From IMG/VR virus record IMGVR_UViG_3300009285_006183, positions 1-23,126 of that record: 23,126 nt of DNA; one strand, written 5' to 3'. Source of the DNA: a virus. The translations under genes were made by a program, and so were the position numbers. Under the pieces are notes generated by a model. The model made no database searches and was not told where the DNA came from. It saw only the letters and a program-made list of their open reading frames with translations. Positions 2,422 through 18,782 of the stretch are shown here, one piece after another (position 1 is the first letter of the stretch; the number at the start of each line of letters is the position of its first letter).

Positions 2422-2961
2422 ATGAGAGATGCACTGACCGTCCCACCTAAATTCATCAGGAAACAATTAAATGGCAAAAAGGTAATGAAACATAGCATTG
2501 AAAAGAGAGGAATTGATAATAAGCTCTCTCTAAAGTGCATAAATACAACAAGAAGGGCTATCCGGCTCGAAAGAGGCCTTCTCACCCATGCTTCCGACAG
2601 ACTGGGAATCGGACTAGCGGTGCTTCAAAGGCGCATTTCAAAAAATCCTGCCATAGCAGAGGCGTATACAGAGCAAATGGAGAGAAATCTGGACGATATT
2701 CAGAAAAATTTAATGGATGCGGCAGATGATAGATACCCATGGGCGATAAAATTCTTCCTGCAAACTCAAGGGAGAAAACGTGGATTTTCAGAACACGTAG
2801 AACATGGTGGGGAAATCAAACTTTCTGGTTCTATTATTTCAAAAGAAGAGGCAGCAAGATTAAGTATAGATGAAATTCGTGAACTTATCAGCATTATCAA
2901 TAGGGCAAAACAACCTGTGCTGGAAGCAAAATTTGAAATAAAAAAGAAAGATGAAAATTAA
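2422..2961 (+). CDS. terS: Terminase small subunit
   Basis: This 179-residue protein probably recognises the phage DNA and hands it to the large subunit for cutting and packaging. Residues about 50-75 (LLTHASDRLGIGLAVLQRRI, then SKNPAIAEA) read as a helix-turn-helix in which an index repressor-like helix is followed by RRISKNPAIAEAY, the pattern of many small terminases. A long charged helix follows (MERNLDDIQKNLMDAADDRY), and the tail is acidic then lysine-rich. The ATG at 2422 has AAGGAGA 11 bases upstream. The gene overlaps the start of the large subunit by 11 bases, in the standard terS-terL order, and lies directly behind the promoter at 2342-2370. The call rests on position and the helix-turn-helix rather than on strong sequence recognition. 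Confidence 0.8.
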   Translation: MRDALTVPPKFIRKQLNGKKVMKHSIEKRGIDNKLSLKCINTTRRAIRLERGLLTHASDRLGIGLAVLQRRISKNPAIAEAYTEQMERNLDDIQKNLMDAADDRYPWAIKFFLQTQGRKRGFSEHVEHGGEIKLSGSIISKEEAARLSIDEIRELISIINRAKQPVLEAKFEIKKKDEN

Positions 2962-6014: not shown

Positions 6015-6081
6015 AATAATATAAATAGTCTTGATTTTTAATTTATTTTTTGGTTTTATAAAGGCAGAAGGAGGGGTATAT

Positions 6082-7677
6082 ATGCCTTGGAAAAAGATTG
6101 ATGTAAAAAAACATAAAAAAGGGTTGAGCGATGCGCAAGAGGAAAAGTGGGTGCGTATTGCGAATGGTTTTTTGTCTGCATGTATAAAAAAAGGTAAAAA
6201 AGAGGCGGAGTGTGCAGTGTCCGCTATTCGTCTTGCAAATAGCATGTCTGGAACTAAAACTAATGAAGAGATTTTGAATTTTAATGAGAGTCTTATTACC
6301 TTAACAGATATTAAAATACGAACTGAGTATCTTGATAAAAGATTACATCTTGTTGTCCCTATGATTATGCTTCTTGAGGGCGTTCATAATGGGAGACTTT
6401 ATTTGGATGAAGATTTATCAAATGCCCCTGAATCATGGAATGGGAGACCTATTGTTGTAACGCATCCTAAAGAAAATGGAGAGCCAGTAAGTGTAAATTC
6501 TTCCCCTAGATTAGTCGAAAAAACTAGAATTGGGACTATATTCAATTCATCATATCAAGATAAAAAACTGACGGCAGAAGGATGGATAGATGTTGATAGA
6601 GCTATGCTTATTGCGCCTGAAATTCTTAATAGGATTAACAATTCAAAACCTCTCGAATTATCTACAGGTTTATGGTTTTTAGAGGAAGAAAAAGAAGGGG
6701 ATTGGAATGGAGAGCCTTATTATGCGATTGCCAGGCATTATAAGCCAGACCATGTAGCTTTTCTTCCTAACGGAAAGGCAGCATGTTCTTGGGAAGATGG
6801 TTGTGGAGTAAGGGCTAATGAAGTAGAAATTGCGGAAGGAGAACTTAGCTTACATTGTATTGTTGATAAATTATATCAAATGGTCAATGTGGGGGACAAG
6901 CCTGTAAATGTTGGAGATTCTGTTGTGGATACAGGTCGAAGATTAAAAGAAGTTTATTTTGATTATTTTACTTTTGTGGATATTGAGGGGAACCTTTATA
7001 AACAAGATTATAAAGTAAATAAAAAGGGGGACATTGTAATAAAAGGAGACCCGGAGAAGGTTAAAAAGATGGTGTCTTATGAAATTGCGCATAAACAGGA
7101 GTTTAATTCATCAACACATTTTGTTAAGGAGGTCGGTATGGACAAGAAGGAAAAAATAGATTATATTTTAGGGACGAAGAAAATGGGACATGAAGAAAAG
7201 AAGAGGCCTGGTTTAGAAGCATTATCAGACGAAGATTTGGAATGGCAATATAAAATGGCAGAAAATTTTAGGAATTGCAAATCATGTAATGGAGATGTTC
7301 TTCCCGGTAAAATTGAAGACAAGACCATTGCAACGAATCAAGGCGAGGCTAAGCCTAAGACATTACAGGAGTATATAAAAGACACTCCTGCTGAATTTAA
7401 AGATGTTATTACAGAAAGTGTGAGAATGCACAATGAAAGGAAAAGTCTCCTTGTTAATGCTATAAAGGGGAACAAGAGAAATAGGTTTTCTTTGGAAAAA
7501 TTAAATGCAATGTCTATTGATGAGATTGAAACATTGGTGGCTTTGGCACAGGTAGATGTTGATTTTAGTGGTCAACTAGGAGGTAGTATTTCTGCGGTAT
7601 TGAAAGCTAACGAGAGGCAACCTGATGGTAGTGGAGTTCCAGATGCGCCTGAGATGAAATGGGGCAATAAGAAGTAA
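6082..7677 (+). CDS. Prohead protease fused to scaffold, DUF2213 family
   Basis: This 531-residue protein probably matures the prohead and carries its own scaffold. Residues 1-55 form a small conserved cap (MPWKKIDVKKHKKGLSDAQE, then WVRIANG and a Cys-x8-Cys pair). Residues about 70-240 are the DUF2213 protease-like domain, with the conserved RPIVVTHP (His128), LELSTGLWF (Ser194) and KPDHVAFLP (His224). The C-terminal 180 residues are charged and helix-rich, with glutamine-poor lysine/glutamate stretches, as scaffolds are. The ATG at 6082 has GAAGGAGGGG just upstream; a longer frame from 6031 lacks a ribosome site. A second in-frame ATG at 7138 with its own AAGGAGGT appears to allow separate production of the scaffold part. 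The gene lies between portal and capsid genes in the normal order. Confidence 0.88.
   Translation: MPWKKIDVKKHKKGLSDAQEEKWVRIANGFLSACIKKGKKEAECAVSAIRLANSMSGTKTNEEILNFNESLITLTDIKIRTEYLDKRLHLVVPMIMLLEGVHNGRLYLDEDLSNAPESWNGRPIVVTHPKENGEPVSVNSSPRLVEKTRIGTIFNSSYQDKKLTAEGWIDVDRAMLIAPEILNRINNSKPLELSTGLWFLEEEKEGDWNGEPYYAIARHYKPDHVAFLPNGKAACSWEDGCGVRANEVEIAEGELSLHCIVDKLYQMVNVGDKPVNVGDSVVDTGRRLKEVYFDYFTFVDIEGNLYKQDYKVNKKGDIVIKGDPEKVKKMVSYEIAHKQEFNSSTHFVKEVGMDKKEKIDYILGTKKMGHEEKKRPGLEALSDEDLEWQYKMAENFRNCKSCNGDVLPGKIEDKTIATNQGEAKPKTLQEYIKDTPAEFKDVITESVRMHNERKSLLVNAIKGNKRNRFSLEKLNAMSIDEIETLVALAQVDVDFSGQLGGSISAVLKANERQPDGSGVPDAPEMKWGNKK
7138..7677 (+). CDS. Nested scaffold protein from an internal start
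   Basis: Inside the protease gene and in the same frame, an ATG at 7138 follows AAGGAGGT (7126-7133) with four bases between. Translation would give a 179-residue protein beginning MDKKEKIDYILGTKK and equal to the C-terminal, charged, helix-rich part of the protease. Lambda uses the same arrangement: the scaffold Nu3 is made from an internal start in the C protease gene. The domain boundary agrees, because the protease core ends by about residue 240 and the internal start is residue 353. The spacing of the ribosome site is a little short, and the site could be chance in a gene rich in GGAG. No direct evidence of use. Confidence 0.5.
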   Translation: MDKKEKIDYILGTKKMGHEEKKRPGLEALSDEDLEWQYKMAENFRNCKSCNGDVLPGKIEDKTIATNQGEAKPKTLQEYIKDTPAEFKDVITESVRMHNERKSLLVNAIKGNKRNRFSLEKLNAMSIDEIETLVALAQVDVDFSGQLGGSISAVLKANERQPDGSGVPDAPEMKWGNKK

Positions 7678-7724: not shown

Positions 7725-8189
7725 ATGGCTTATAGAACAGTAGTTTTGAAGGGAGACCCAATAAGAAAGGAAATTAAGGCTGGTGGAGCGATTACACCTG
7801 GGCATTTAGTAGAAAGAAATACCAGTGGGAACGTAGTTGTTCATCCTACTGCCGGAGGTAATTATAGTCCAACGTTTGCAATAGAAGATTCTTTGCAGGG
7901 GAAAGAGATTACAGATGCTTATGCGACTAATAATAGAGTCCAGGTCGCATTTTTATCTTCTGGAATGGAGGTTGCCGCTATTCTTACGACTTCTCAAACA
8001 ATTGTTATTGGAGATTTGCTTGAAAGTGCTGGCAATGGGACAGTGAGAAAACATACTGTTCAGGCTGCTGATAGTGTGGGTGCTCTTGAGGCTGGCGAAC
8101 AGATTCCTACTCTCCTTGCCCGTTTGCGGGCAATTGAAGCAGTAACTACGACTGTCGCTACTGCTAGAATTGCATGTGAGGTTGTTTAA
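7725..8189 (+). CDS. Head decoration or cement-like protein
   Basis: A 154-residue protein of mostly beta character lying between the protease and capsid genes, where decoration proteins are usual. The opening AYRTVVLKGDPIRKEIKAGG and the PGHLVERNTSGNVVVHPTAGG segment resemble DUF2190-like cement proteins, in which a glycine-rich first strand and a repeated valine/threonine pattern form a compact barrel. The later AAILTTSQTIVIGDLLESAG and the alanine/threonine-rich C terminus are consistent with a structural protein. It would bind the outside of the capsid lattice and stabilise it. The ATG at 7725 follows AGGAGGTTGAAATGTT; a nearer ATG at 7720 is in another frame. Family assignment is moderate because such proteins diverge quickly. 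Confidence 0.65.
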   Translation: MAYRTVVLKGDPIRKEIKAGGAITPGHLVERNTSGNVVVHPTAGGNYSPTFAIEDSLQGKEITDAYATNNRVQVAFLSSGMEVAAILTTSQTIVIGDLLESAGNGTVRKHTVQAADSVGALEAGEQIPTLLARLRAIEAVTTTVATARIACEVV

Positions 8190-8230: not shown

Positions 8231-9229
8231 ATGAAACTTCGGGGTGGAGATGCAAGTGTAGAAATGTTGACTGGCGATAAGAGGTCTCATGGAAGTATTG
8301 CTAAGAGACTACTTCAAAGTGGTTTCGATGTCAACTCATTAAGGACGAATGATACCCTTTTGTATGATGAATGGAAAGAATTGGATGGGGCTGTTTTAGA
8401 TTCTTTCCAGAATAGGATTGTTGGGGTTGCAGATTTACTTTCAAGAAATTTGGTTTATGATGTAAAGAAAGGTCTTGCCGCTACAGTGCTTTCATTTCAG
8501 GATGCTAGTGATATTAATGCCGCAGATATGACAATGGATGGTGTTAATCATGGGCAAAGAGACAGACAAGAATACAATATTAATTATTTGCCTTTGCCAA
8601 TTATTCACAAGGATTTTGGTTTCTCTATTCGTGAGATTCAGGAATCTAGGAATGGTACACGTCCCCTTGATACGAGTATGGCAGAGCTTTGTGCCCGTAA
8701 GGTAGCTGAAAAGGCAGAAGATTTACTGTTTAATGGTTCATCTTCGTATACCTATGGAGGTGGGACTATTTATGGGTATACTGATTTTACTAATCGGAAT
8801 ACGTTTACAATTCAATCTGGAGGCTGGGATGGGGCTACCGGTGAGCAGATTGTAGCTGATGTTATTGATATGAAGCAGGCAAGTATTAATGATAGATGCT
8901 ATGGGCCCTGGGTATTATACATTCCAACAGATTTTGAAAGCAAAATGGATAGTGATTTTAAGGCTAATAGTGACAAGACAGTTCGGCAGAGAATATTGGA
9001 GATTGGGGGTATTCAAGATGTAAAAGTTGCAGATACCCTTACCGCTAGTAATGTTGTTCTTGTTCAAATGCAGAGCAATACTGCTCGTATTGTTCAAGGA
9101 TTAGGCTTAAAAACAGTTCAATGGGATATTGAAGGCGGGATGTTTGTTAATTTTAAAGTTATGGCGATTATTGTTCCTCAGATTCGTTCAGACCAATCAG
9201 GAAGATGTGGTATTGTTCATGGAACTTAA
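8231..9229 (+). CDS. Major capsid protein, HK97 fold
   Basis: This 332-residue protein is the likely shell subunit. Position after protease and decoration genes is standard. Recognisable stretches include the N-terminal arm with DEWKELDGAVLDSFQNR, the E-loop/spine region with LPLPIIHKDFGFSIREIQES, the long spine helix (DTSMAELCARKVAEKAEDLLFNG), the glycine-rich YTYGGGTIYGYTDF, and the late VADTLTASNVVLVQMQS and VNFKVMAIIVPQIRSDQSGR strands. The pattern of a helix ending in LFNG followed by GYT is typical of encapsulin-like and DUF2184-like capsids. No cleavage site for the protease is obvious near the N terminus, since the first 30 residues are short. AAGGAGGT stands ahead of the ATG at 8231. 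Confidence 0.88.
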   Translation: MKLRGGDASVEMLTGDKRSHGSIAKRLLQSGFDVNSLRTNDTLLYDEWKELDGAVLDSFQNRIVGVADLLSRNLVYDVKKGLAATVLSFQDASDINAADMTMDGVNHGQRDRQEYNINYLPLPIIHKDFGFSIREIQESRNGTRPLDTSMAELCARKVAEKAEDLLFNGSSSYTYGGGTIYGYTDFTNRNTFTIQSGGWDGATGEQIVADVIDMKQASINDRCYGPWVLYIPTDFESKMDSDFKANSDKTVRQRILEIGGIQDVKVADTLTASNVVLVQMQSNTARIVQGLGLKTVQWDIEGGMFVNFKVMAIIVPQIRSDQSGRCGIVHGT

Positions 9230-9342: not shown

Positions 9343-9597
9343 ATGGGATATTTTAGAAAGAAGTACGGCAAGCATCATTATCGTGGAGGAGATGGAGAGG
9401 TTCATGTTGTTAAAGCTGGGGAGATAATAAAATGTCAACGTGAATTTCTCAGGGGGGCTATTTCTACGTTTGATGAAATAGAAGAGGGTGAAATAGGCAA
9501 CAAGAAGATGAAAAAAGTAAAAATTGCAGACGGTGAAGTAGTCTCTGCATTAAATGTAAAAGAGGGCAAGAAGTTTAAAAGGGAAAAGAAGGTATAA
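9343..9597 (+). CDS. Small basic head-region protein, 84 residues
   Basis: The function is not recognised. The N-terminal half (MGYFRKKYGKHHYRGGDG, then VHVVKAGEIIKC and a C-terminal FDEIEEGE) looks like a small beta domain: GKH-x-R, a gap, a KAGEII strand and an aromatic-acid-I-E end. The same pattern appears as an insertion within the methyltransferase encoded at 15579-17246 (GKHRIGHETFIKGDIIEV, then RFELIES). The C-terminal half is lysine-rich (KKMKKVKIADGE and EGKKFKREKK). The ATG at 9343 follows AGAGGAGTAATAAG. It is the last gene before the sugar island and may be a minor head or decoration protein; that is inference from position. Confidence 0.7.
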   Translation: MGYFRKKYGKHHYRGGDGEVHVVKAGEIIKCQREFLRGAISTFDEIEEGEIGNKKMKKVKIADGEVVSALNVKEGKKFKREKKV

Positions 9598-9607
9598 TAT
9601 AAATTGG

Positions 9608-9651
9608 GCATGACAGGCTGTATAATGTAAAAGTTATATGATCTGTCATGC
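9608..9651. promoter_or_regulatory. Hairpin at the left edge of the sugar island
   Basis: GCATGACAG (9608-9616) and CTGTCATGC (9643-9651) pair perfectly over nine bases, with an inner TATAA/TTATA pair (9621-9625, 9634-9638). No T-run follows, so it is not a plain terminator. TATAAT occurs at 9593 and again at 9621, but no -35 fits either. It may be a processing or pausing site or the scar of an insertion. Confidence 0.5.
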
Positions 9652-9672
9652 TTACCTTGAATGGAGGATTTA

Positions 9673-10314
9673 GTGAAATACGAAATACCTAGGATATGGG
9701 AAAATGAACCTTGCTATATTATTGGAGGTGGTTGGAGCTTAAAAGGGTTTGATGTCTCTATACTTAAAAACAAGAATATAATTGCTATAAACAATGCTTT
9801 TAAACTAGCGGATTTTATTCAATATTGTTGGTTTGGCGATTTTCAATGGTACACGTGGAACGAAAACGATATTACGGCTAGATTTTTAAGGTTGTCCCCT
9901 CCATTTAATTTAATATCATGTCATCCTAAATTTGAAAAACACAATCAAATTCGTTATGTACAAAGAACTGGAGGTAATGGGATTAATAGAACTCCAAATA
10001 CAGTATATTGGAATTATTGTAGTGGTTTTAGTGCAATCAATTTTGCGTATCATTTAGGGTCAAATCTAATCATCCTCTTAGGGTTTGATATGAAACCGAA
10101 TCCTATATCGCCATTAGACAATAATTATCATAATGAGCATCAAGTTAAATTAAGGAAGGCGTATAATCCATACCTTTCTTATTTAAGGTCGGTAGAATCA
10201 ATAAAAAAAGATATTGATGAATTGGGGATAATAATTTTAAATGTAACTAAAGATAGCGGCATACCTAATGATATTTTTAAATGGGTTTCTATTGAGGAAG
10301 TGATTAATTTATGA
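9673..10314 (+). CDS. DUF115/MptE-like protein, first gene of the sugar island
   Basis: A 213-residue protein with a Rossmann-like start: IWENEPCYIIGGGWSLKGFD (residues about 8-27), then IIAINNAFKLADFIQYCWFGD and a later strand NLIILLGFDMK. This matches the DUF115/MptE-like group, found in flagellin-glycosylation Maf proteins and in phage genes, where the fold binds a nucleotide-linked substrate. A sugar-transfer role is likely from context but the exact reaction is not known. The start is taken at the GTG at 9673, because GGAGG (9663-9667) lies five bases upstream; an ATG at 9661 is in frame but has no ribosome site. The gene's 3' end overlaps the next start in an ATGA, so the pair is translationally coupled. 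Confidence 0.7.
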   Translation: MKYEIPRIWENEPCYIIGGGWSLKGFDVSILKNKNIIAINNAFKLADFIQYCWFGDFQWYTWNENDITARFLRLSPPFNLISCHPKFEKHNQIRYVQRTGGNGINRTPNTVYWNYCSGFSAINFAYHLGSNLIILLGFDMKPNPISPLDNNYHNEHQVKLRKAYNPYLSYLRSVESIKKDIDELGIIILNVTKDSGIPNDIFKWVSIEEVINL

Positions 10315-10961
10315 TAAATGATGATAAGGTATCTGTTATTTGTGTTCTAAAAAGAGGGGGTGTTTATCGTCAATCCTTTGTTAAAAATTTAAGGGATATG
10401 GTAACTAAACATTTAAGCTTCCCCCATGAATTTGTGTGCCTAACAGATATGATTTCTCCGTTTTCCAGGCCTTTATTGGATAATTATTATAAGTGGTGGA
10501 GTAAAATTGAAGCCTTCCGTATAACTGGCGCTGTTATATATTTTGATTTGGATACCGCAATTTTCAAATCTATTGATTCTATGGCTAAGAGTCTTCTTGA
10601 GGGAAAGAATAAAGGACTTAATGTGATGTATATGCTACATACCTTTAGGAACTCTTTCAAAAATACGGGTGAGTGGAGTAGTAGTTTTATGGCGTGGTCT
10701 GGTGATTTTAAATGGTTATTTAACGAATTTAATGAAAATGAGGATGTAGATAAATACCAGTGGGAACAAAAATATATTATTGATAAATTACAAGGCCGTA
10801 ACATTCCAATTTTATCAATACAAGGGCTTGTTAAAGGGAAAATCACAGGATATAAGCATTATACGATGAGCGATGAAGAAATAAAAAAAATGAATGTTAC
10901 AGTGGCATGTTTTCATAACAAACAGAATCATAAGGAGGTTTGGGAACATGGTAAATCTTAA
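10311..10961 (+). CDS. DxD glycosyltransferase-like protein, copy 1
   Basis: This 216-residue protein opens with KVSVICVLKRGGVY (a beta-strand and loop typical of GT-A glycosyltransferases), then KWWSKIEAFR and YFDLDTAIF (residues about 77-85). DLD is the DxD motif that binds the metal and nucleotide sugar in GT-A enzymes such as GT8. The later MAWSGDFKWLF may form the acceptor-side loop, and VACFHNKQNH ends the conserved part. It shares every one of these blocks with the protein at 11135-11821, so the two are paralogs. The donor and acceptor are unknown. The start at 10311 overlaps the previous stop by four bases. An additional small gene overlaps its 3' end. Confidence 0.72.
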   Translation: MINDDKVSVICVLKRGGVYRQSFVKNLRDMVTKHLSFPHEFVCLTDMISPFSRPLLDNYYKWWSKIEAFRITGAVIYFDLDTAIFKSIDSMAKSLLEGKNKGLNVMYMLHTFRNSFKNTGEWSSSFMAWSGDFKWLFNEFNENEDVDKYQWEQKYIIDKLQGRNIPILSIQGLVKGKITGYKHYTMSDEEIKKMNVTVACFHNKQNHKEVWEHGKS

Positions 10962-11142
10962 AGACGCTACAATAACTTTTAAGATAACAGGAATTTTAAA
11001 GGAGACAATTCTAATAACAGTTCATATTAAAGGTTATAGATGGTGGAGAATTAAGTCTTTTATAGCGAAATATTTAATCCGATTAGGTTGTTGGATGGCT
11101 AATTTACCTATTGTTTTTGAAAATAATAAAACAAATGATTAG
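10948..11142 (+). CDS. Hypothetical protein, 64 residues, between two paralogs
   Basis: The function is not recognised. The protein starts MVNLKDATITFKITGILKET and has a mixed hydrophobic and basic middle (ILITVHIKGYRWWRIKSFIA) followed by KYLIRLGCWMANLPIVFEN. The tryptophan pair and the alternating basic and hydrophobic residues would suit a peripheral membrane protein, but no clear transmembrane helix is present. The ATG at 10948 follows AAGGAGG (10932-10938) nine bases upstream, a strong site, so it is probably translated. It overlaps the 3' end of the first glycosyltransferase-like gene and the start of the second, filling the exact gap between the two paralogs. Confidence 0.6.
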   Translation: MVNLKDATITFKITGILKETILITVHIKGYRWWRIKSFIAKYLIRLGCWMANLPIVFENNKTND

Positions 11143-11821
11143 TATAATCTGTGTATTAAAGACAGGTGGAGATTATGATAAAAGGTATGTTTTTGCCCTT
11201 TTAAATGCCTGTAAAAAATATATCAATGAGAATTTTGCGTTTAAATGTTTTACAGATGATGAAAATTTTCTTAAAGACCCTGATGAGGGCTCAATTTTAA
11301 CCTACATAACAAATAAAAAGATTCTTTTCTCGATGATTAAGTTGGAGAAGGGATATAAAGGATGGTGGAGTAAGTTTGAAATATTTAGAAATAAAGGAAT
11401 TAATCTGTATTTTGACCTTGATACGGTTATTTTTTCAGGTTTAGATGAAATTATTCAAATTGTAAAGGGGTTAAAAGATACTGAATTTCTTGCAATGAAA
11501 AGGCTTAATCCTTTAAGATGGGAAAGGGAAGGAATGTTCACTTCTGGAATTATGGGTTGGAATGGAGATTTTAGATTTATGTTTGATGATTTTCGTTATG
11601 AAAATGCACTTGGACCCTCTATTCGTGGAGATGCAGATATTATTTATAAAATGTTAAAACATCGAAATATTATTATTCAATATCTTCAAGACCAATTTCA
11701 AGGGCTATATAGTTATAAAAGACATTGTTTATGTAAAATCCCTGAAGACGCTAAAATAGTTTGTTTTCATGGAAAACCTAGGCCTCATGAGGTAGGGGGG
11801 GTATACTGGAATGAAATGTAA
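11135..11821 (+). CDS. DxD glycosyltransferase-like protein, copy 2
   Basis: A 228-residue paralog of the 10311-10961 product. Shared blocks are ISIICVLKTGG (residues 2-12), YKGWWSKFEIFR (74-85), LYFDLDTVIF (91-100), GWNGDFRFMF and the closing KIVCFHGKPRPHEV. The DLD motif is intact, so both copies may be active. This copy has an extra segment before the DxD motif (SILTYITNKKIL). The start at 11135 overlaps the previous stop; an upstream ATG at 11111 would add MFLKIIKQ but has no ribosome site. Its 3' end overlaps the dehydrogenase gene. Two diverged copies suggest two linkages or two donors in one glycan, or an old duplication. The donor sugar is unknown. Confidence 0.72.
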   Translation: MISIICVLKTGGDYDKRYVFALLNACKKYINENFAFKCFTDDENFLKDPDEGSILTYITNKKILFSMIKLEKGYKGWWSKFEIFRNKGINLYFDLDTVIFSGLDEIIQIVKGLKDTEFLAMKRLNPLRWEREGMFTSGIMGWNGDFRFMFDDFRYENALGPSIRGDADIIYKMLKHRNIIIQYLQDQFQGLYSYKRHCLCKIPEDAKIVCFHGKPRPHEVGGVYWNEM

Positions 11822-12860
11822 AGCGGCAATACTCAATAAATTAAATGAGCCATTGATAATAGAAGATATTGAAATTCCTAATTTGCAATGTGGTCAGGTT
11901 CTTGTTCAAGTACGAGCCAGTAGTATTTGTGGAGCGCAAATAGGAGAAATAAATGGGGCTAAAGGTGAAGATAAATATTTACCTCACCTTTTAGGACACG
12001 AAGGCGGGGGTATTGTTTGTGATGTTGGTGAAGGCGTAACACAAGTAAAAATAGGAGACAATGTTGTTTTACATTGGAAAAAAGGATTGGGGATTGAGAG
12101 CCCTTTCCCTAAATATAAATATGATGGTGGAATAGTTGGAGGCGGAAGCGTAACAACATTTAATGAGTACGCAGTAATTTCTGAAAACCGATTAACGGTA
12201 ATTGATAAATCTATTTCTTTTGAGATAGCCGCCCTTATGGGATGTTCTGTGACAACAGGTTTAGGGTTGATTAATAATGAGGCACAATTAAAGATTGGGC
12301 AGTCTATTGTTGTAATTGGGTGTGGTGGGGTTGGGCTAAATGTAATTCAGGGAGCATTTATGGTATCTGCAAATCCTATTATATCTATAGATAAAAACCC
12401 ACATAAACTTTTTACCTCTCTTCAATATGGGGCTACTCATAATATTCTTGCTGTTGATTCAGATACAAATATTGAAGAGGAAGTTTGTAAAATTTTAGGG
12501 AAAAAAGGGGCTGATGTTGTTGTTGACTGCACTGGAGTAGTAGGTTTGATTAATCAAGGATATAGAATTACTTCTTCTAATGGTAAAATGATTTTAGTTG
12601 GGCAACCTAGACATGGTGAGAATTTAATATTTACTTCTATGAGAGACCATTATTGCGGGAAAACAATAATGGATTCTCAAGGAGGGTTGACGAACCCAAA
12701 TATAGATATTCAGAGGTATTTAGACTTATATTCTTTAGGAAAGCTACATTTAAACAAATTAATCTCTCAGAGTTTCCCCCTTCATCTTGTAAATGAAGCA
12801 ATAAATTTAATTCAAGATGGGATAGGCAATAAATATATTTTAAGAATGGATGGGGTATGA
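11811..12860 (+). CDS. Zinc-dependent alcohol/sugar dehydrogenase (MDR family)
   Basis: A 349-residue medium-chain dehydrogenase that probably oxidises or reduces a hydroxyl on a sugar or sugar phosphate with NAD(P). The zinc-binding catalytic core shows Cys40 (SSICGAQ), His63-Glu64 (LLGHEGGG) and Cys145 (MGCSVTTG), the normal ligand set. The nucleotide-binding fold has GCGGVG at residues 170-175, followed by ISIDKNPHKL. The four-cysteine structural zinc lobe of classical alcohol dehydrogenases is absent around residues 90-115, as in many sugar dehydrogenases. The substrate cannot be read from the sequence; neighbouring transketolase and short-chain dehydrogenase genes suggest a sugar precursor route. 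It overlaps the preceding gene by 11 bases and the next by four. Confidence 0.9.
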   Translation: MKCKAAILNKLNEPLIIEDIEIPNLQCGQVLVQVRASSICGAQIGEINGAKGEDKYLPHLLGHEGGGIVCDVGEGVTQVKIGDNVVLHWKKGLGIESPFPKYKYDGGIVGGGSVTTFNEYAVISENRLTVIDKSISFEIAALMGCSVTTGLGLINNEAQLKIGQSIVVIGCGGVGLNVIQGAFMVSANPIISIDKNPHKLFTSLQYGATHNILAVDSDTNIEEEVCKILGKKGADVVVDCTGVVGLINQGYRITSSNGKMILVGQPRHGENLIFTSMRDHYCGKTIMDSQGGLTNPNIDIQRYLDLYSLGKLHLNKLISQSFPLHLVNEAINLIQDGIGNKYILRMDGV

Positions 12861-13645
12861 TGGACAATATGAGATTATTTTTTAATGAAATTAATAGAAT
12901 TTATGATTGTAATTTGACTAAAATAAGAATTGGAAATAAACATGATGGGGGGTATATAGCTTTAAAGGAAATTTGTGAAAATATTAAAAAGGTATATAGT
13001 TTTGGGATAGGTGATGATGTTGGTTTTGAAATGGATTTTATTAAAAGATTTCCTGATTCAATTATACAATGCTTTGACCCTACAATAGATTCACTACCTG
13101 TTTACCCTCGTAATATGTTTTCAGAAAAAATATTATTTAAGAAAGCAGGGCCTAAATCTTTAATGAAAGTAGATGGTGGGTCGTTGTTAAAAATGGATAT
13201 TGAGGGCAATGAATGGGATAATATTAATTCATCAGAAATGTTTAATATAAAAAACCTTGTTAATTTTAACCAAATACTTATTGAGTTTCATATTTTAACC
13301 GTAGAGGCTAAAGTTGGAACGACTACATATTTCGATAAATTGTATTCTGATTTTGCCGTTGCGATAAACGATAGTTTATTTAATAGTTATTACAGAGTGA
13401 TGAATCATCTGAATAAATTCTTTTATATTTTTCATGTGCATCCGAATAATTCTCTCCCTAAAGTTACCATTCAAGGTTATACATTCCCCCCTTTAATTGA
13501 ATTAAGTTTAGTTAGAAAAGGTTTGGTTGATATTGTTTATGATACCCATACTGAATTCCCTGTAGAAGATTTAGATTTCCCTAATAAGACAGATAGACCA
13601 GATATTCTTCATTTTTATCCTTTAGGAGGTATTATTGATGAATGA
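12857..13645 (+). CDS. FkbM-like methyltransferase
   Basis: A 262-residue protein that probably transfers a methyl group from S-adenosylmethionine to a sugar hydroxyl. RIGNKHDGGYIALKEI (residues about 24-39) precedes the SAM-binding strand VYSFGIGDDVGFE (46-58), and LLKMDIEGNEWDNI (110-123) is the very characteristic D-x-EG-x-E signature of the FkbM group. The C-terminal part (YRVMNHLNKFFYIFHVHPNN) ends in the F-H-x-H-P-N pattern often seen in phage members of the family. Its ATG overlaps the previous stop (ATGATGG), implying coupling. It also overlaps the transketolase gene by eight bases. O-methylation of a rare sugar would fit the island; the acceptor is inferred. Confidence 0.78.
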   Translation: MMDNMRLFFNEINRIYDCNLTKIRIGNKHDGGYIALKEICENIKKVYSFGIGDDVGFEMDFIKRFPDSIIQCFDPTIDSLPVYPRNMFSEKILFKKAGPKSLMKVDGGSLLKMDIEGNEWDNINSSEMFNIKNLVNFNQILIEFHILTVEAKVGTTTYFDKLYSDFAVAINDSLFNSYYRVMNHLNKFFYIFHVHPNNSLPKVTIQGYTFPPLIELSLVRKGLVDIVYDTHTEFPVEDLDFPNKTDRPDILHFYPLGGIIDE

Positions 13646-14375
13646 GATGAGTGAACGGTCAAAACAAATAAGAAGGGATACGATTGCATTATCTAAAGCA
13701 AATGGAGGGTATCATTATGGGGGTTGTTTTTCTATTGTAGAAATATTAATCGCTTTATTTGATTATACTATGAAACCTAAAGATAAGTTTATTCTTAGTA
13801 AAGGGCATTCGTGTTGGCCCTATTATGTTATTTTAAGAGAATTAGGGTATAATCCAAAGTTATTTGGGCATCCTACAAGAGACGAGAAAAATGGAGTTTA
13901 TTGTACTACTGGTAGTGAAGGGCATGGATTTCCTGTAGGAGTTGGTATGGCTTTAGCAAAGAAAATAAAAAATGAAGAAGGAATTATTTATGTGTTAATG
14001 GGAGATGGAGAGTGTCAAGAAGGGACTACTTGGGAATCTTTGTTAATAGCAGGAAAACACAAACTCGATAACCTTGTTGTGGTTATTGACAAAAACAAAA
14101 TACAAGGTTCTGATTATGTAAATAATATTCTTCCTATTGATGGAATTGAGAAGATTTTTCATTTTGCTGGTTGGGTTTCTTATGAAGGTGTGAATGGACA
14201 TTCTATTGATGAGCTTGTTACAGAATTTAGAAGTAGGGTGGAGGGGTATCCTCAATTAATAATAGCAAATACAGTTAAGGGTAAAGGCGTTAGTTTTATG
14301 GAGAATGAACCTAAATGGCACGCTTGTTGGCTTGATATTGAAAAGGAACAATTAGCTTTAAAGGAGTTACAGTGA
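13638..14375 (+). CDS. Transketolase N-terminal subunit, thiamine diphosphate domain
   Basis: The first half of a split transketolase, 245 residues. SKGHSCWPYYV (residues 54-64) and TTGSEGHGFPVGVGMALA (90-107) carry the histidines and glycines around the cofactor, and MGDGECQEGTTWES with Asn153 (VVIDKNKIQ) is the thiamine diphosphate and metal signature GDG-x(26-30)-N. The chain ends where the pyrophosphate-binding domain normally ends. Transketolase moves a two-carbon ketol unit between sugar phosphates, so it could make an unusual ketose or branched sugar here. The ATG at 13638 lies eight bases after GGAGG (13625-13629). Its partner follows directly, overlapping by four bases, and both are needed for a complete active site. 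Confidence 0.9.
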   Translation: MNEMSERSKQIRRDTIALSKANGGYHYGGCFSIVEILIALFDYTMKPKDKFILSKGHSCWPYYVILRELGYNPKLFGHPTRDEKNGVYCTTGSEGHGFPVGVGMALAKKIKNEEGIIYVLMGDGECQEGTTWESLLIAGKHKLDNLVVVIDKNKIQGSDYVNNILPIDGIEKIFHFAGWVSYEGVNGHSIDELVTEFRSRVEGYPQLIIANTVKGKGVSFMENEPKWHACWLDIEKEQLALKELQ

Positions 14376-14854
14376 GAAGGCAATTTGGGAAAACAATTAT
14401 TAAATTAGCCGAAAAAGATGAGAGAATTGTTTTAATAACGGGGGATGTTAAACAAGAAATGGATGAATTTATTAATAAATTTCCGTGTAGATTTTTTAAT
14501 CTTGGACTAACCGAACAAAGTATTATTAGTATCGTTGCGGGAATGGCGATAGAAGGGCTGAGACCAATTGTTTATTCGATAACCCCATTTTTAATTGAGC
14601 GTCCATTTGAGCAAATTAAAATTGATATTGACGAACAAAACCTTCCTGTAATATTAATTGGGAATGCGGATTATCCTACTCACGGGCCCACGCATAGACC
14701 TTTGAATGCAGAAGGCCTAATAGGGTTATTTAAAAATATTGATGGTTATTTTCCTCGTAATATGCAAGAGACAGAAAAAGCAATGATTGATGCCTACTTA
14801 ACTAAGAACCCTTCTATTATTTGCCTTAAAAAGGATGGAGTCCCCATATTTTAG
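14372..14854 (+). CDS. Transketolase pyrimidine-binding subunit, C-terminal domain missing
   Basis: The second half of the split transketolase, but only 160 residues. It covers the pyrimidine-binding domain: IVLITGDVKQ, then FFNLGLTEQSIISIVAGMAI with Glu48 in the place of the catalytic glutamate that activates thiamine, then RPIVYSITPFLIERPFEQIK and HGPTHRPLNAEGL. The usual split C-terminal subunit is about 300-330 residues with a further transketolase C domain; here the chain stops after KDGVPIF, and the next gene starts 9 bases later in an unrelated family. It begins at a GTG overlapping the previous stop. Since the C domain mainly helps dimer contacts and not cofactor binding, activity is possible but unproven. 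Confidence 0.85.
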   Translation: MRRQFGKTIIKLAEKDERIVLITGDVKQEMDEFINKFPCRFFNLGLTEQSIISIVAGMAIEGLRPIVYSITPFLIERPFEQIKIDIDEQNLPVILIGNADYPTHGPTHRPLNAEGLIGLFKNIDGYFPRNMQETEKAMIDAYLTKNPSIICLKKDGVPIF

Positions 14855-14862
14855 GAGAAGGT

Positions 14863-15579
14863 ATGGACAATTACAAAAAAGTATTAATAACAGGGGCAAG
14901 TAGAGGATTAGGTAAGGAGCTGGCGTATGTTTTTGCAAATAATGATTATGATTTGATTTTACATTCTAAAAGTACGGTTTTACCTGTAGTATATAGGAGT
15001 TTTCGATTTGATAGACAAAATACCCCAATTCATTTTGACCGTCTTTATGGAGATTTATATCTCTTTAAGACTGTAAAGGATTTAATAAAAATTGCTAAAG
15101 GGGGAAATATAAGTGTTTTTGTCAATAATGCCGCTATATATCTCAATGATTCAATTTCCAATATAACTTCTGAAAAGTGTAGGGAAATATTAGAGGTTAA
15201 TTTAATCGCACCTATTCTTTTAATTAAAGGTATTTGGGAAATATTTAAAGAAAAAAAAGAAGGAATAATAATCAATATCAATTCTACAGCGGGCAAATCT
15301 GGCTCTTTTGGAGAATCTCTTTATAGTGCATCTAAGCATGGGCTGGCCGGCTTTCTTAAATGCCTTCAATTTGAGGCCTCAGCATATAATATCCAGATTT
15401 TCGATGTATATTTAGGCGCAATGAAAACCGAAATGACACAACACAGAGAAGATGCTGAAAAGCTAATGAGGCCTTATGAAGTTGCAAAATGTATTTACTC
15501 TTCATGTTTGTCTGATGATATTGTTGCTTGTGGAACAACGAAAATTTCTGAAATTGTGATTAACAGGAGGGTTTATTAA
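14863..15579 (+). CDS. Short-chain dehydrogenase/reductase
   Basis: A 238-residue NAD(P)-dependent oxidoreductase of the classical SDR type. TGASRGLG (residues 10-17) is the dinucleotide-binding glycine motif, NNAA (88-91) stabilises the central sheet, and Ser141, Tyr154 and Lys158 (INSTAG ... YSASK) are the catalytic residues, all present. LGAMKTEMTQ follows in the position that closes over the substrate. A basic residue after the glycine motif is consistent with NADPH but does not prove it. In this cluster it probably reduces a keto sugar made by the transketolase or dehydrogenase. AGGAGAAGG stands ahead of the ATG at 14863. It overlaps the next gene by one base. Confidence 0.9.
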   Translation: MDNYKKVLITGASRGLGKELAYVFANNDYDLILHSKSTVLPVVYRSFRFDRQNTPIHFDRLYGDLYLFKTVKDLIKIAKGGNISVFVNNAAIYLNDSISNITSEKCREILEVNLIAPILLIKGIWEIFKEKKEGIIININSTAGKSGSFGESLYSASKHGLAGFLKCLQFEASAYNIQIFDVYLGAMKTEMTQHREDAEKLMRPYEVAKCIYSSCLSDDIVACGTTKISEIVINRRVY

Positions 15580-17246
15580 TGCAAATGAAATGTATTTGTG
15601 GATTTTCTAATTATAATTCTATAAATGATAGGGAAAGTTATAAAGTAACCTCTATGGGGGAAACTGTCATAGCGGATTATAAAATTGAATTTGGTTCATG
15701 TATTGATTGTGGTATAGTTCGTCAAATAAATGTCCCTTTTAATAATAACGAAGATTATCTTCAATTTTACCGAAATAAATATGAACCTGTTAACCCTTTA
15801 TATGTCGTAAAGAGTTACGAGCATGATAGGGAATTAGCAAAAATAAGATGTCAAAATTATGGGATTGGAAAAGTCGTTATTTCGACAATTAAGCCTCCTG
15901 AAAGCCCTTCTATTCAAAAAAATAAATATAGATTATTAAAAGGTAAACATAGGATAGGGCATGAAACCTTTATAAAAGGAGATATTATAGAGGTGTCTGC
16001 TAAAAGAATTGCTCAATTTATGGACAGGTTTGAGCTTATTGAGTCTATAAAACCTAAGCAAGAATTAAAACAGGAATTATCAATTCTTACTATGGAGAAC
16101 AAAGAAAGAATTTTAGATGTAGGTTCTGGAAGTGGGGCTTTTGTAGATGAATGTAGAGAATTAGGTCACGAGGCATTTGGGTGTGAAATATCTCATTATG
16201 ACTATGCAAAAAAAACAGATTATATTTATTACGACCAATTTGAAAATGTAAATTTTCCTACTGATTATTTTGACAAAATAACTTCTCATGATGTTATAGA
16301 GCATTCTTTAGAACCCGTAAAAATGATTATTGAGGCATTCAGAGTTTTAAAGCAGGAGGGGGAATTTATTGTAGATTATCCTAATTATTTTGTAGATGCT
16401 GGAAAACATCACTGGAAAAAAGAACATCTCTGGTATTTTTCAATAGAAGATTTGAAAAGGATTTTTGTAAAGGTTGGGTTTCATATTAAAGAAATAAAAT
16501 ATCCGATACCATCTAAAGCTACATTTTATTTAAAAAAACCAAGACAATTAAGAGTTAAGATTCTGTACCCCCCAGGTATTGGAGATTCATATTGGTCTAT
16601 AGTTAAAACACAAGCACTTCTAAAGCGTGAGAAATTAGATATTCCTGATATTTATATTGCGTGTCCTCGTGAGAAGGAGTTTGATGGGCATAAACGGGCA
16701 TTCCCATTTATTGAGATGTTCCCATTTCTCAATTCTACTAATGAAACTTTTGATAATAGCGATTCCAAAAGTAGAGGGATTTGGAATGAAGCCTATAAAT
16801 ATAAAGGCAGAACGATATTTAAAGATATATTAGGCTTCGATTATTTCGTTTCTTATAATGGACACCTTCGTTATGGAGAACAGATGGAAGAAATAGATTC
16901 TGATTTAGAGTGCAATTGGTTTCCACCTATATTTGTTTCTTTGGAGCAGGAAAGGTTTAAGTCAAAGTGTATTCAAAAATATGGGAAATACATCGTCTTT
17001 TATTTTGTCTTTCAAGGTACTTATGCTTATTGGACAAAAGAGTTCTCAGTAGAAAGTGTTATTCAGGCTATAAAAGAAATTACAATGAAAACAAATTATA
17101 CGCCTATATTTGCTGGTGCAATTTGGGACAATAAAAGAGACGACCATCTTAGTCTTGTTAGGCAAAGCATACCTAATTGCGTGGATTTAACAGGTCAAAC
17201 GACTGTTCCTCAATTATTCGGACTATTAAAGGGAGTGAGGCTGTAG
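15579..17246 (+). CDS. Zinc-ribbon methyltransferase fused to GT9-like glycosyltransferase, cut by a frameshift
   Basis: A 555-residue product with four parts. Residues 1-50 hold CxC and CxxC (Cys5, 7, 41, 44), as in zinc-binding N termini of sugar methyltransferases. Residues 114-157 are an inserted small domain (GKHRIGHETFIKGDIIEV and RFELIES) that resembles the 84-residue protein at 9343-9597. Residues about 175-310 are a class I SAM methyltransferase (ILDVGSGSGAF at 178-188, then SHDVIEHSLEP). From about residue 335 (VKILYPPGIGDSYWSIVKTQ) the chain looks like a GT9 heptosyltransferase. It stops prematurely at LLKGVRL; the natural continuation SEAVVGYPSGLTIVSG lies in the -1 frame (to 17464). 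Whether this is a programmed shift or an indel is open. It begins in a TAATG overlap after AGGAGGG. Confidence 0.82.
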   Translation: MQMKCICGFSNYNSINDRESYKVTSMGETVIADYKIEFGSCIDCGIVRQINVPFNNNEDYLQFYRNKYEPVNPLYVVKSYEHDRELAKIRCQNYGIGKVVISTIKPPESPSIQKNKYRLLKGKHRIGHETFIKGDIIEVSAKRIAQFMDRFELIESIKPKQELKQELSILTMENKERILDVGSGSGAFVDECRELGHEAFGCEISHYDYAKKTDYIYYDQFENVNFPTDYFDKITSHDVIEHSLEPVKMIIEAFRVLKQEGEFIVDYPNYFVDAGKHHWKKEHLWYFSIEDLKRIFVKVGFHIKEIKYPIPSKATFYLKKPRQLRVKILYPPGIGDSYWSIVKTQALLKREKLDIPDIYIACPREKEFDGHKRAFPFIEMFPFLNSTNETFDNSDSKSRGIWNEAYKYKGRTIFKDILGFDYFVSYNGHLRYGEQMEEIDSDLECNWFPPIFVSLEQERFKSKCIQKYGKYIVFYFVFQGTYAYWTKEFSVESVIQAIKEITMKTNYTPIFAGAIWDNKRDDHLSLVRQSIPNCVDLTGQTTVPQLFGLLKGVRL

Positions 17247-17464
17247 TGGGATACCCTTCTGGACTGACTATTGTTTCAGGAATGTTAAAAGCGAAAACCT
17301 TAATTATTTGGAATAATTATTATAATAAAGATTTTGCATGGTATTGTGTCCCTCCTTCTGTAAGAGAAAAAACATATTTTATTGAAAATACGAATGGCTT
17401 AAATCCACTAAAATTGACAAATAGAGTGGTAGAACTCATAAAATCGTACCCAAATACGTCCTAG
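17177..17464 (+). CDS. C-terminal part of the GT9-like glycosyltransferase, -1 frame
   Basis: The genuine homology starts at about base 17234, where KGSEAVVGYPSGLTIVSG continues the sequence lost from the 15579-17246 frame, and goes on through KTLIIWNNYYNKDFAWYCVP, SVREKTYF and the C-terminal helix. This is the donor-binding half of a GT9 glycosyltransferase. The shift point lies at A AAG GGA (17228-17234), which has the X XXY YYZ form of a -1 slippery site. The ATG at 17177 is in the right frame but its first 19 residues do not look natural and it lacks a ribosome site. If the shift is used, the complete enzyme has about 628 residues; if not, the gene is broken here. No strong stem follows the site. 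Confidence 0.65.
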   Translation: MRGFNRSNDCSSIIRTIKGSEAVVGYPSGLTIVSGMLKAKTLIIWNNYYNKDFAWYCVPPSVREKTYFIENTNGLNPLKLTNRVVELIKSYPNTS

Positions 17465-17517
17465 AGCTTCCTAGACGCATTCCTAACGATTTAAAATATG
17501 TTTTTAGGAGGAGGAAA
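17459..17517. promoter_or_regulatory. Short repeats and a weak hairpin before the 37-residue gene
   Basis: TCCTAGA occurs at 17459-17465 and 17469-17475 with the related TCCTAAC at 17481-17487, about one helical turn apart. CCTAA (17482-17486) can pair with TTAGG (17504-17508), which covers the start of the AGGAGGAGG ribosome site, so the next gene could be weakly gated. The stem is only five base pairs. Confidence 0.35.
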
Positions 17518-17631
17518 ATGATGATTAAGCTAGTAGGAATAACAACCGTGTTTTTACAAGATAAAAATAGAAAGGCTGTTCAATTAAGGGCAAAAATGCG
17601 GGAAAGAAATAATAAAGGGCAATTTACTTAA
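17518..17631 (+). CDS. Small hypothetical protein, 37 residues
   Basis: The frame reads MMIKLVGITTVFLQDKNRK, then an arginine-rich helix and ends ERNNKGQFT. It is preceded by AGGAGGAGG (17506-17514), the strongest ribosome site of the island; a start at the second ATG (17521) would be one residue shorter and gives better spacing. It lies alone between the glycosyltransferase and the sulfotransferase-like gene, seven bases before the latter. The basic C-terminal end with NNKGQF resembles the ends of small phage DNA- or capsid-associated proteins, but there is no assignable family. Its real translation is supported mainly by the ribosome site. Confidence 0.5.
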   Translation: MMIKLVGITTVFLQDKNRKAVQLRAKMRERNNKGQFT

Positions 17632-17638
17632 AAGGCAT

Positions 17639-18331
17639 ATGGTTATGAACACTAAAGAATTTGTAGCAAAGGGAATTTTAATAACTGGGTGTGCTAGAAG
17701 TGGAACTTCTTTAGTAGCAGGAATAATTAACCTTTGTGGTGCTTTTGGAGGTAAGATGAGGCCTCCAAATGTAAATAATAAAAAAGGGATGTTTGAGAAT
17801 ACAGTTATAACCCAAAATATAGTTAAGCCATTTTTAAAATCTATTGAGGCAGATACAATGGGACAAAACCCACTGCCCGACCCAATTAAAGTAAGAAGAA
17901 AAATAATATCAAATGAGAATGATTGGGCGTTACGTATTCTTAATGTATTGAAAGAAGAAGGGTATAAAAATAATTATTGGTTTTATAAAGGTGCGAAAAT
18001 GTGCTTGATGTGGGAAATGTGGCATTCTGCATTTCCTGATGTCAAATGGATTATTGTAAGGAGAGATAAACAAAAAATTATCGAATCTTGTCTTAGAACG
18101 TCATTTATGAGAGCATATAAGGATAGGCAAGGTTGGACTCAATGGGTTGATTGGCATGAAAAACGATTTAAAGAAATGTTGGAAAATAAGTTAAATGTAA
18201 CCGAAATATCATCTGAAAAGGTAATTCTTGGAGATTTAAGCGAAATTAAAACTATTGTTATCGAAACAGGTCTTTCTTATAATGAAGAGGCAATACGAAA
18301 TTTTGTTTCGCCTGAGTTATTTCATCTTTAA
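17639..18331 (+). CDS. Sulfotransferase-like P-loop protein
   Basis: A 230-residue protein whose ITGCARSGTSLVAG (residues about 15-28) is the 5'-phosphosulfate-binding P-loop (G-x-x-RSGTS) of the sulfotransferase fold. VKWIIVRRDKQKIIESCLRT in the middle resembles the second PAPS-binding loop with the conserved Arg and Ser in R-x(6-8)-S spacing. KGMFEN between them and the C-terminal FVSPELFHL fit distant phage and bacterial members of the family. It would transfer sulfate from PAPS to a sugar hydroxyl, or may use a related activated donor. No PAPS synthesis gene is in the window, so the host would supply the donor. The start is ATG 17639, with AAAAGG before it; ATG 17645 is also possible. It is the last gene of the island. 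Confidence 0.72.
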   Translation: MVMNTKEFVAKGILITGCARSGTSLVAGIINLCGAFGGKMRPPNVNNKKGMFENTVITQNIVKPFLKSIEADTMGQNPLPDPIKVRRKIISNENDWALRILNVLKEEGYKNNYWFYKGAKMCLMWEMWHSAFPDVKWIIVRRDKQKIIESCLRTSFMRAYKDRQGWTQWVDWHEKRFKEMLENKLNVTEISSEKVILGDLSEIKTIVIETGLSYNEEAIRNFVSPELFHL

Positions 18332-18350: not shown

Positions 18351-18782
18351 ATGGCAAATAGAGTAACATCAACGGAAGTCAAAACGATATTGGTAACTGC
18401 ACTTACGGGTACTCAGCTTGACCCTTTTATTACTGTGGCAAATCTTATTGTTACTAATAAGTTAGGAAATAGTGGGCTTGGTGATGCTCTGCTAAAAGAA
18501 ATTGAACGTTGGCTTTCGGCACATTTTATTTATATATCAAACCCATCTTATTCTAGTACGCAAAAAAATGCAAGGGGGGTTGTTGTATCGGAACGAATAG
18601 GAGAGACATCTATCTCTTATTCAGATATTTTAAAAAATCCAAATTCAAATTTAGGCTTATTGTCAAGTACAATTTATGGACAACAGGCGATTACAATAGA
18701 TTTAACAGGAACTCTTGCGAATTTGGGGAAGAGAAGAGCAAGTGTGAACGTTTTAAATGTTATTGACACAAGTGACGTATGA
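18351..18782 (+). CDS. Head-tail adaptor, DUF4054/gp6-like
   Basis: This 143-residue neck protein probably sits under the portal and joins it to the tail connector. RVTSTEVKTILVTALTGTQL (residues 4-23), DPFITVANLIVTNKLG and LLKEIERWLSAHFIYISN are the three conserved helices of the family, followed by ERIGETSISYSD and the STIYGQQAITIDLTGTLANLG segment. The pattern is well known from DUF4054-type phages that also have a DUF1073 portal. The ATG at 18351 follows TAGGTGATAT. It resumes the structural gene order interrupted by the sugar island and overlaps the next gene by four bases. Confidence 0.78.
   Translation: MANRVTSTEVKTILVTALTGTQLDPFITVANLIVTNKLGNSGLGDALLKEIERWLSAHFIYISNPSYSSTQKNARGVVVSERIGETSISYSDILKNPNSNLGLLSSTIYGQQAITIDLTGTLANLGKRRASVNVLNVIDTSDV

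Follow-up and report, generated by a model that had tools for sequence, protein, structure and literature searches.

The IMG/VR virus record IMGVR_UViG_3300009285_006183 is a linear virus sequence of 23,126 bases, which was analysed over its full length and is called the window here. This fragment of a tailed phage contains a co-directional glycan operon (9661-18331) that extends from the capsid genes to a DUF4054 neck gene. Together with its relatives, the operon suggests that an almost entirely uncultured clade of tailed phages reserves a slot in its head operon for exchangeable genes, which act as a virion-glycosylation cassette, a reading that we hold with reasonable, if not strong, confidence. 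The slot, its borders and the elements within it are listed below (ORF, open reading frame; aa, amino acids).

8231-9229, + strand: major capsid protein (MCP), left border of the slot (PHROG 771/264)
9343-9597, + strand: small ORF of 84 aa in the gap between MCP and cassette, matching no family
9605-9654, + strand: strong RNA hairpin between the small ORF and the DUF115-like gene (-26.7 kcal/mol, z -5.8)
9661-10314, + strand: DUF115-like glycosyltransferase, predicted Maf/CstII fold, constant left end (PHROG 4603, E 1e-28)
10311-10961, + strand: small DxD glycosyltransferase-like protein (a) (PHROG 1962)
10948-11142, + strand: tiny ORF of 64 aa, read from the sequence
11135-11821, + strand: small DxD glycosyltransferase-like protein (b), with relatives in most slots (PHROG 1962)
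11811-12860, + strand: zinc-type medium-chain dehydrogenase, first gene of the transketolase module (PF00107/PF08240)
12857-13645, + strand: FkbM-like methyltransferase (Pfam score below the cut-off)
13641-14375, + strand: split transketolase, N subunit binding thiamine diphosphate (ThDP) (PF00456)
14372-14854, + strand: split transketolase, second subunit, Pyr domain only, 160 aa (PF02779)
14863-15579, + strand: short-chain dehydrogenase/reductase (SDR) (PF00106, E 7e-36)
15579-17246 plus 17177-17464, + strand: class I methyltransferase fused to a GT9-like domain (PF13489)
17518-17631, + strand: tiny ORF of 37 aa, read from the sequence
17639-18331, + strand: predicted sulfotransferase of the 3'-phosphoadenosine 5'-phosphosulfate (PAPS) type, constant right end (PF13469)
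18351-18782, + strand: DUF4054-like head-neck gene, right border of the slot (PHROG 302)

An earlier note on this DNA had described an island of approximately 8.7 kb of glycan genes between the capsid region and the DUF4054 neck gene, and ORFs and family matches confirmed these genes in their places. Its gene list was right in substance, apart from the FkbM methyltransferase, which reached only a sub-threshold Pfam score, and the methyltransferase-GT9 protein, which is spread over two ORFs. The two tiny ORFs, the hairpin at 9605-9654 and a -1 frameshift in the GT9 part near position 17230 were absent from it. The approximately 8.7 kb of + strand glycan genes, most of which overlap, are followed downstream by DUF4054, a connector gene and tail genes, and the GC content of the island (32%) is lower than that of its flanks (37%).

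First relatives were collected by searches with one glycosyltransferase and with the MCP, and all distinct relatives obtained in this way carry glycan genes between MCP and DUF4054. When the search was widened by means of sulfotransferase and MCP alignments, about 170 loci from IMG/VR and metagenome-assembled genomes (MAGs) were obtained, among which 60 non-redundant slots could be delimited. Both wider searches comprised the best 80 matches each (for the MCP, the best 80 of at least 512), and the loci described here are the nearer relatives. Given that a search based on the sulfotransferase selects for this very gene, MCP-found and sulfotransferase-found slots were tallied apart. Most of the 60 slots follow a constant plan, namely the small ORF, the DUF115-like gene, zero to about 12 variable sugar genes, the sulfotransferase gene and DUF4054. 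The DUF115 gene was present in 41 and the sulfotransferase gene in 38 of the 42 MCP-found slots. For 50 of 56 distinct sulfotransferases, DUF4054 follows immediately 3'; for the remaining six, DUF4054 or connector genes lie slightly farther downstream. The 60 slots have a median size of 4.9 kb and a maximum of 11.5 kb, and three of them are empty (211-262 bases with one small ORF); empty-slot relatives thus have a small ORF at the place of the window's small ORF, too. The MCPs encoded upstream of the cassette in the relatives are 41-56% identical.

The gene order from capsid to DUF4054, for which the earlier note had proposed to search in other phages, was thus found in independent contigs. 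As findings that would speak against its view, the note had named a bacterial O-antigen locus and an assembly breakpoint at an edge of the island; instead, both junctions are common to the relatives, and the FkbM gene of the module had no more than two remote matches in 132 bacterial genomes of one related host phylum. An assembly chimera, in which a fragment of a bacterial O-antigen locus was fused into a phage contig, might be suspected from the lower GC content of the island and from the GT9 frameshift. Its probability is close to nil, however, as both junctions and the block order are seen again in independent contigs from many metagenomes, and assembly artefact or bacterial contamination was rejected on the grounds of the common junctions and of a module order kept in 8 of 60 slots. 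Because independent contigs show the same junctions, gene order and families, and because the ratio of nonsynonymous to synonymous substitution rates (dN/dS) of the module genes in two close pairs of relatives is 0.02-0.18, indicating purifying selection, the arrangement is not due to chance. What the earlier note had taken for an exceptional insertion proved to be the ordinary content, variable from phage to phage, of a slot that characterises this phage clade, and the complete transketolase pathway that it had singled out is merely one among many such fillings.

Between its constant ends, the slot varies even among close relatives. The MCPs of loci L072 and L160 are 88% identical to that of L140, but the fraction of interior genes in common is only 0.11-0.12. 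Likewise, the slot of L125 measures 2.5 kb in comparison to 8.5-9.6 kb in these three loci, although its MCP is 85-89% identical to all of theirs. The pairwise identity of DUF115 proteins tracks that of the structural genes (Spearman 0.49-0.56) in the same way as structural genes track one another, and that of the sulfotransferases does so less closely (Spearman 0.19-0.43). Judging from these correlations and the interior turnover, DUF115, which 19 of 20 large contigs contain, behaves like a core gene of the head operon and the middle like exchangeable material, with the sulfotransferase between the two. GT2, radical SAM, hexapeptide transferase, methyltransferase, epimerase, RmlD and GDP-mannose dehydratase are frequent interior families, and in 47 of 53 slots the island has a lower GC content than its flanks (median -2.7 points). 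Two slot proteins contain domains of homing endonucleases (NUMOD3 and GIY-YIG), which are a possible vehicle for cassette movement. High turnover, the lower GC content of the middle and these endonuclease domains would also be expected of auxiliary metabolic or moron genes that happen to pile up where the genome tolerates them and that serve no common product. We consider such a gathering quite unlikely, given that the recognised slot genes belong nearly all to sugar, methyl or sulfate chemistry, that both ends are constant and a multi-gene module keeps its order in eight slots, that purifying selection is at work, and that a gene for an adenosine 5'-phosphosulfate (APS) kinase adjoins the sulfotransferase gene in some relatives.

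The enzyme at the constant left end is likely to start at GTG 9673, which has GGAGG just upstream and was also chosen in the earlier note, with ATG 9661 as the alternative. Its AlphaFold2 model, derived from 55 sequences, reached a predicted local distance difference test (pLDDT) value of 93. The sole PDB match below 1e-3 was the Maf glycosyltransferase 5mu5 (E 4.9e-5, template modelling (TM) score 0.56), with the sialyltransferase CstII next. In the sequence alignment, GGG-S-L, N44, D60, SG, GxD and H157 are strongly conserved. Judged by its modelled fold, the protein is probably an initiating protein-O-glycosyltransferase. Maf enzymes O-glycosylate Ser/Thr residues of flagellin with ulosonic acids, and one of them takes 3-deoxy-D-manno-oct-2-ulosonic acid (Kdo) activated by cytidine monophosphate (CMP) (PMC11339370). 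Genes resembling kdsB, which encodes CMP-Kdo synthetase, were found in the gap between terminase and portal in several relatives; NCBIfam named four of them, three above the kdsB cut-off.

L185, 6082-6813: kdsB-like CMP-Kdo synthetase
L186, 4900-5661: kdsB-like CMP-Kdo synthetase
L183, 5949-6728: kdsB-like CMP-Kdo synthetase
L182, 9163-9894, minus strand: kdsB-like CMP-Kdo synthetase

With its kdsB-like genes, the terminase-portal gap provides the head operon with a small accessory site in addition to the slot. The transketolase module and a kdsB-like gene occur together in four carriers (L011, L014, L141/L143 and L116), and no kdsB was found between terminase and portal in the module carrier L043 or in the window. 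CMP-Kdo is a likely sugar donor in some of the phages. GT9 is the heptosyltransferase family, which acts on Kdo in lipopolysaccharide. A scheme with CMP-Kdo as the donor and GT9 as a subsequent enzyme would be coherent, albeit unproven.

The sulfotransferase at the constant right end scored barely above the profile cut-offs (PF13469, 27.9 bits vs 27; PF17784, 22.9 vs 22.8). Its AlphaFold2 model has a pLDDT of 94, and its 16 PDB matches at E<=1e-3 comprise sulfotransferases only, with tyrosylprotein sulfotransferases on top. The PAPS-binding residues R20, S21, G22 and S24 (loop RSGT/S) as well as R142 and S150 (3'-phosphate motif R...S) are invariant in 56 homologs. The model and these residues point to a protein that is probably a sulfate-adding enzyme. 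No match to it was found among 50,697 phage records. In three relatives, a gene for an APS-kinase-like protein of 121-151 aa, smaller than ordinary APS kinases, is located directly 5' of the sulfotransferase gene.

L020, 9301-9726: APS-kinase-like protein
L025, 9645-10010: APS-kinase-like protein
L051, 9562-10017: APS-kinase-like protein

An APS kinase of 196 aa that looks full-length (E 8.7e-57) is encoded elsewhere in another cassette phage (L131 contig, G020:62873-63322). The APS-kinase-like and kdsB-like genes of some relatives lend independent support to sulfation and CMP-sugar chemistry, respectively.

The variable genes of the window include a module whose order is kept in 8 of 60 slots: dehydrogenase, FkbM-like methyltransferase, transketolase N part, an extra gene in some, second transketolase part, SDR and methyltransferase-GT9. 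The best PDB match of the transketolase N part is 6yak, the N component of a split-chain transketolase, and its ThDP motif GDG...N is intact in the alignment. The second part lacks the C-terminal domain in the window and in its relatives alike, which makes it a reduced variant of the split-chain transketolase; since it also has about 160 aa in the relatives, is 67-79% identical and keeps the catalytic Glu (TEQ/CEQ), it looks functional. Proteins of 258-292 aa encoded between the two transketolase genes (L043:6335-7213, L116:13379-14167, L024:5297-6073) have no Pfam match and belong to more than one family. The FkbM-like proteins of the eight module carriers are 39-50% identical, and only two remote matches to this gene were obtained in 132 genomes of Zixiibacteriota, one related host phylum. 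In the relatives, a single intact ORF (541-831 aa) encodes methyltransferase-GT9, in many cases together with a third domain of the DxD type, and the GT9 domain was recognised in the L014 homolog. The small DxD glycosyltransferases, whose DLD motif is invariant in nine homologs, had no match in a PDB sequence search.

None of 437 slot proteins of at least 100 aa has two or more membrane spans, compared with 31 of 2,971 plus-strand ORFs overall, by a simple hydropathy count that single unusual spans can escape. Since multi-spanning slot proteins are missing, export of a lipid-linked polysaccharide is not encoded. This result bears on the possibility that the cassette alters the host surface (lipopolysaccharide core or O-antigen) during infection or lysogeny, thereby blocking superinfection or masking a receptor. 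The interior GT2, epimerase, RmlD, hexapeptide transferase and GT9 families are typical of surface-polysaccharide loci, and kdsB is an enzyme of lipopolysaccharide synthesis in bacteria. The acceptors of GT9-type enzymes, moreover, are lipid-linked and lie on the inner side of the membrane, where soluble enzymes could still act. We nevertheless regard a host-surface role as unlikely, considering that a flippase, a polymerase and a membrane-bound initiating transferase are all absent from the slots, that the genes lie inside the head operon, that an integrase was detected in only 4 of 20 large contigs, and that DUF115 co-evolves with the head genes. The making, transfer and decoration of an unusual sugar by phage-encoded enzymes within a structural operon, as put forward in the earlier note, is supported; of the two targets it offered, a virion protein is favoured and the host surface disfavoured.

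The absence of membrane proteins would also fit with enzymes that act on the phage DNA and attach sugars and sulfate to its modified bases, and phage glycosyltransferases and sulfotransferases have been proposed as base modifiers (Iyer et al. 2013, as cited in PMC10829341). Such a function is very unlikely here: the genes are placed in the head operon rather than beside replication genes, the constant enzyme finds its best counterpart among known structures in a protein O-glycosyltransferase, and a thymidylate-synthase fold was found in only 3 of 20 large contigs. No Tet/JBP gene was detected in these 20 contigs either, which is a weak argument as the search control remained silent.

The best reading of these data is that a virion protein, probably one of the head, receives O-linked sugars and sulfate from a cytoplasmic pathway, and that cassette exchange diversifies the product. 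The location in the head operon and the Maf-like first enzyme lead us to infer that a virion protein is the simplest acceptor, with head proteins first; the MCP is a candidate. The constant DUF115-like enzyme would act first, in the cytoplasm, and join a sugar directly to Ser/Thr residues of a freshly synthesised virion protein. The sugar, Kdo or a different ulosonic acid, is probably CMP-activated, and the recipient would most likely be the capsid protein or some other protein of the head. The variable middle genes would then make and add further sugars. In the window, the dehydrogenase, the minimal split transketolase and the SDR may yield an unusual ketose-derived sugar, which the FkbM-like and class I methyltransferases may methylate and the GT9 and DxD enzymes transfer. 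Finally, the constant sulfotransferase would draw on PAPS to cap the glycan, or else the protein, with sulfate. Swapping of the middle between the constant ends would provide related phages with different coats. A more detailed version, which we advance only tentatively, is a capsid "serotype" locus, in which a Kdo-type primer placed on a head protein in the manner of Maf carries a sulfated glycan resembling a lipopolysaccharide core, with the middle exchanged as a cassette, such that virions within one lineage would differ in their sugar coats.

Several points weigh against virion glycosylation. The enzymatic activities, the acceptor, the structure of the glycan and its benefit are all inferred. 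The DUF115/Maf assignment derives from only PHROG and the fold, the TM score is modest and the window protein had no Pfam Maf/DUF115 match (no family at E<=0.01); the enzyme is therefore called Maf-like here rather than Maf. The target of the sulfate may be the protein or another molecule, and the conserved position in the structural operon could reflect expression timing alone. The window itself has neither kdsB nor an APS kinase gene, and its GT9 part loses the frame by -1 near 17230 (17205-17260), with the C-terminal third encoded in the ORF 17177-17464. A slippery A-AAG-GGA is found at this site, with no stable structure downstream (z -0.14). Given this lack of a stable RNA structure and the continuous frame of the relatives, mutation or an error in sequencing would explain the shift at least as well as programmed frameshifting.

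The remaining features of the window confirm, by ORFs and profile searches, a tailed-phage head module comprising TerL, portal, protease, decoration protein and MCP.

2951-4585: TerL
4497-6014: portal
6031-7677: protease
7725-8189: decoration protein
from 21245, running past the end of the window: tape measure

The hairpin at 9605-9654 is nearly perfect (13 + 8 pairs) and is possibly a processing or attenuation element, which could tune the expression of the cassette relative to that of the capsid. As a conserved element it was rejected, being present in no other locus. Promoter and terminator counts within the island were not above those of shuffled sequence. With regard to hosts, MCP relatives occur in MAG records that carry the labels Zixiibacteriota, Sulfurovum, Marinimicrobia, Bacteroidales and Thermoplasmata. 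Just one of these records, L168 from Zixiibacteriota (CP070742.1), is a full-length chromosome. The relative in question lies inside this record of 3.7 Mb, so that some members of the clade are probably prophages of Zixiibacteriota. The slot of L168 contains DUF115, glycosyltransferase and methyltransferase genes, and a sulfotransferase was not found anywhere in that genome.

Glycans have been reported on the major capsid proteins of the mycobacteriophages Che8 and Rita (Freeman et al. 2023, as cited in PMC11256854), which resemble the cassette phages in having phage-encoded glycosyltransferases and, as proposed for the cassette phages, a capsid target. In contrast, the candidate glycosyltransferases of the related phage Maravista are located near the 3' end of the genome, and the account consulted describes no sulfotransferase, Maf-like gene or exchangeable pathway slot in the head operon (PMC11256854). 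The DUF115-like enzyme shares its predicted fold with the Maf flagellin O-glycosyltransferases (5mu5; PMC11339370) and, as proposed here, the soluble transfer of a CMP-ulosonic acid to Ser/Thr of a self-assembling surface protein; unlike Maf, it is half as large, consists of a single domain and is encoded beside a capsid gene. The slot sulfotransferase has the fold and PAPS-binding residues of tyrosylprotein and other PAPS sulfotransferases, but is only 14-18% identical to known ones and forms its own subfamily. Constant borders, exchangeable sugar genes and a middle of lower GC content are reminiscent of bacterial O-antigen and capsule loci, whereas the slots lack flippase, polymerase and multi-spanning membrane proteins and are sited in a phage head operon. 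The Brevundimonas phages StAshley and MaInes have an MCP with 38% identity and a DUF4054 homolog; in the cultured StAshley, however, the slot is empty, with one 118-aa ORF between the two genes. Our literature search found no paper describing this locus, and none combining sulfotransferase, major capsid protein, terminase and glycosyltransferase; two environmental studies class phage sulfotransferases as auxiliary metabolic genes (PMC12285232, PMC10829341). While phage-encoded virion glycosylation is already known, an exchangeable cassette with constant ends and a sulfotransferase in the head operon appears to be new.

Few cases of virion glycosylation are known in tailed phages, and here a whole clade keeps a slot in the head operon for such genes. 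The viruses of this clade probably furnish their own particles with a coat of sulfated sugars, which they diversify. The analysis names enzymes that can be tested, CMP-Kdo as the likely donor in some of the phages, and a ready set of natural variants. If the reading is true, these phages would vary their particle surface much like bacteria vary their O-antigens, and sulfated glycans would represent a new class of phage coat.

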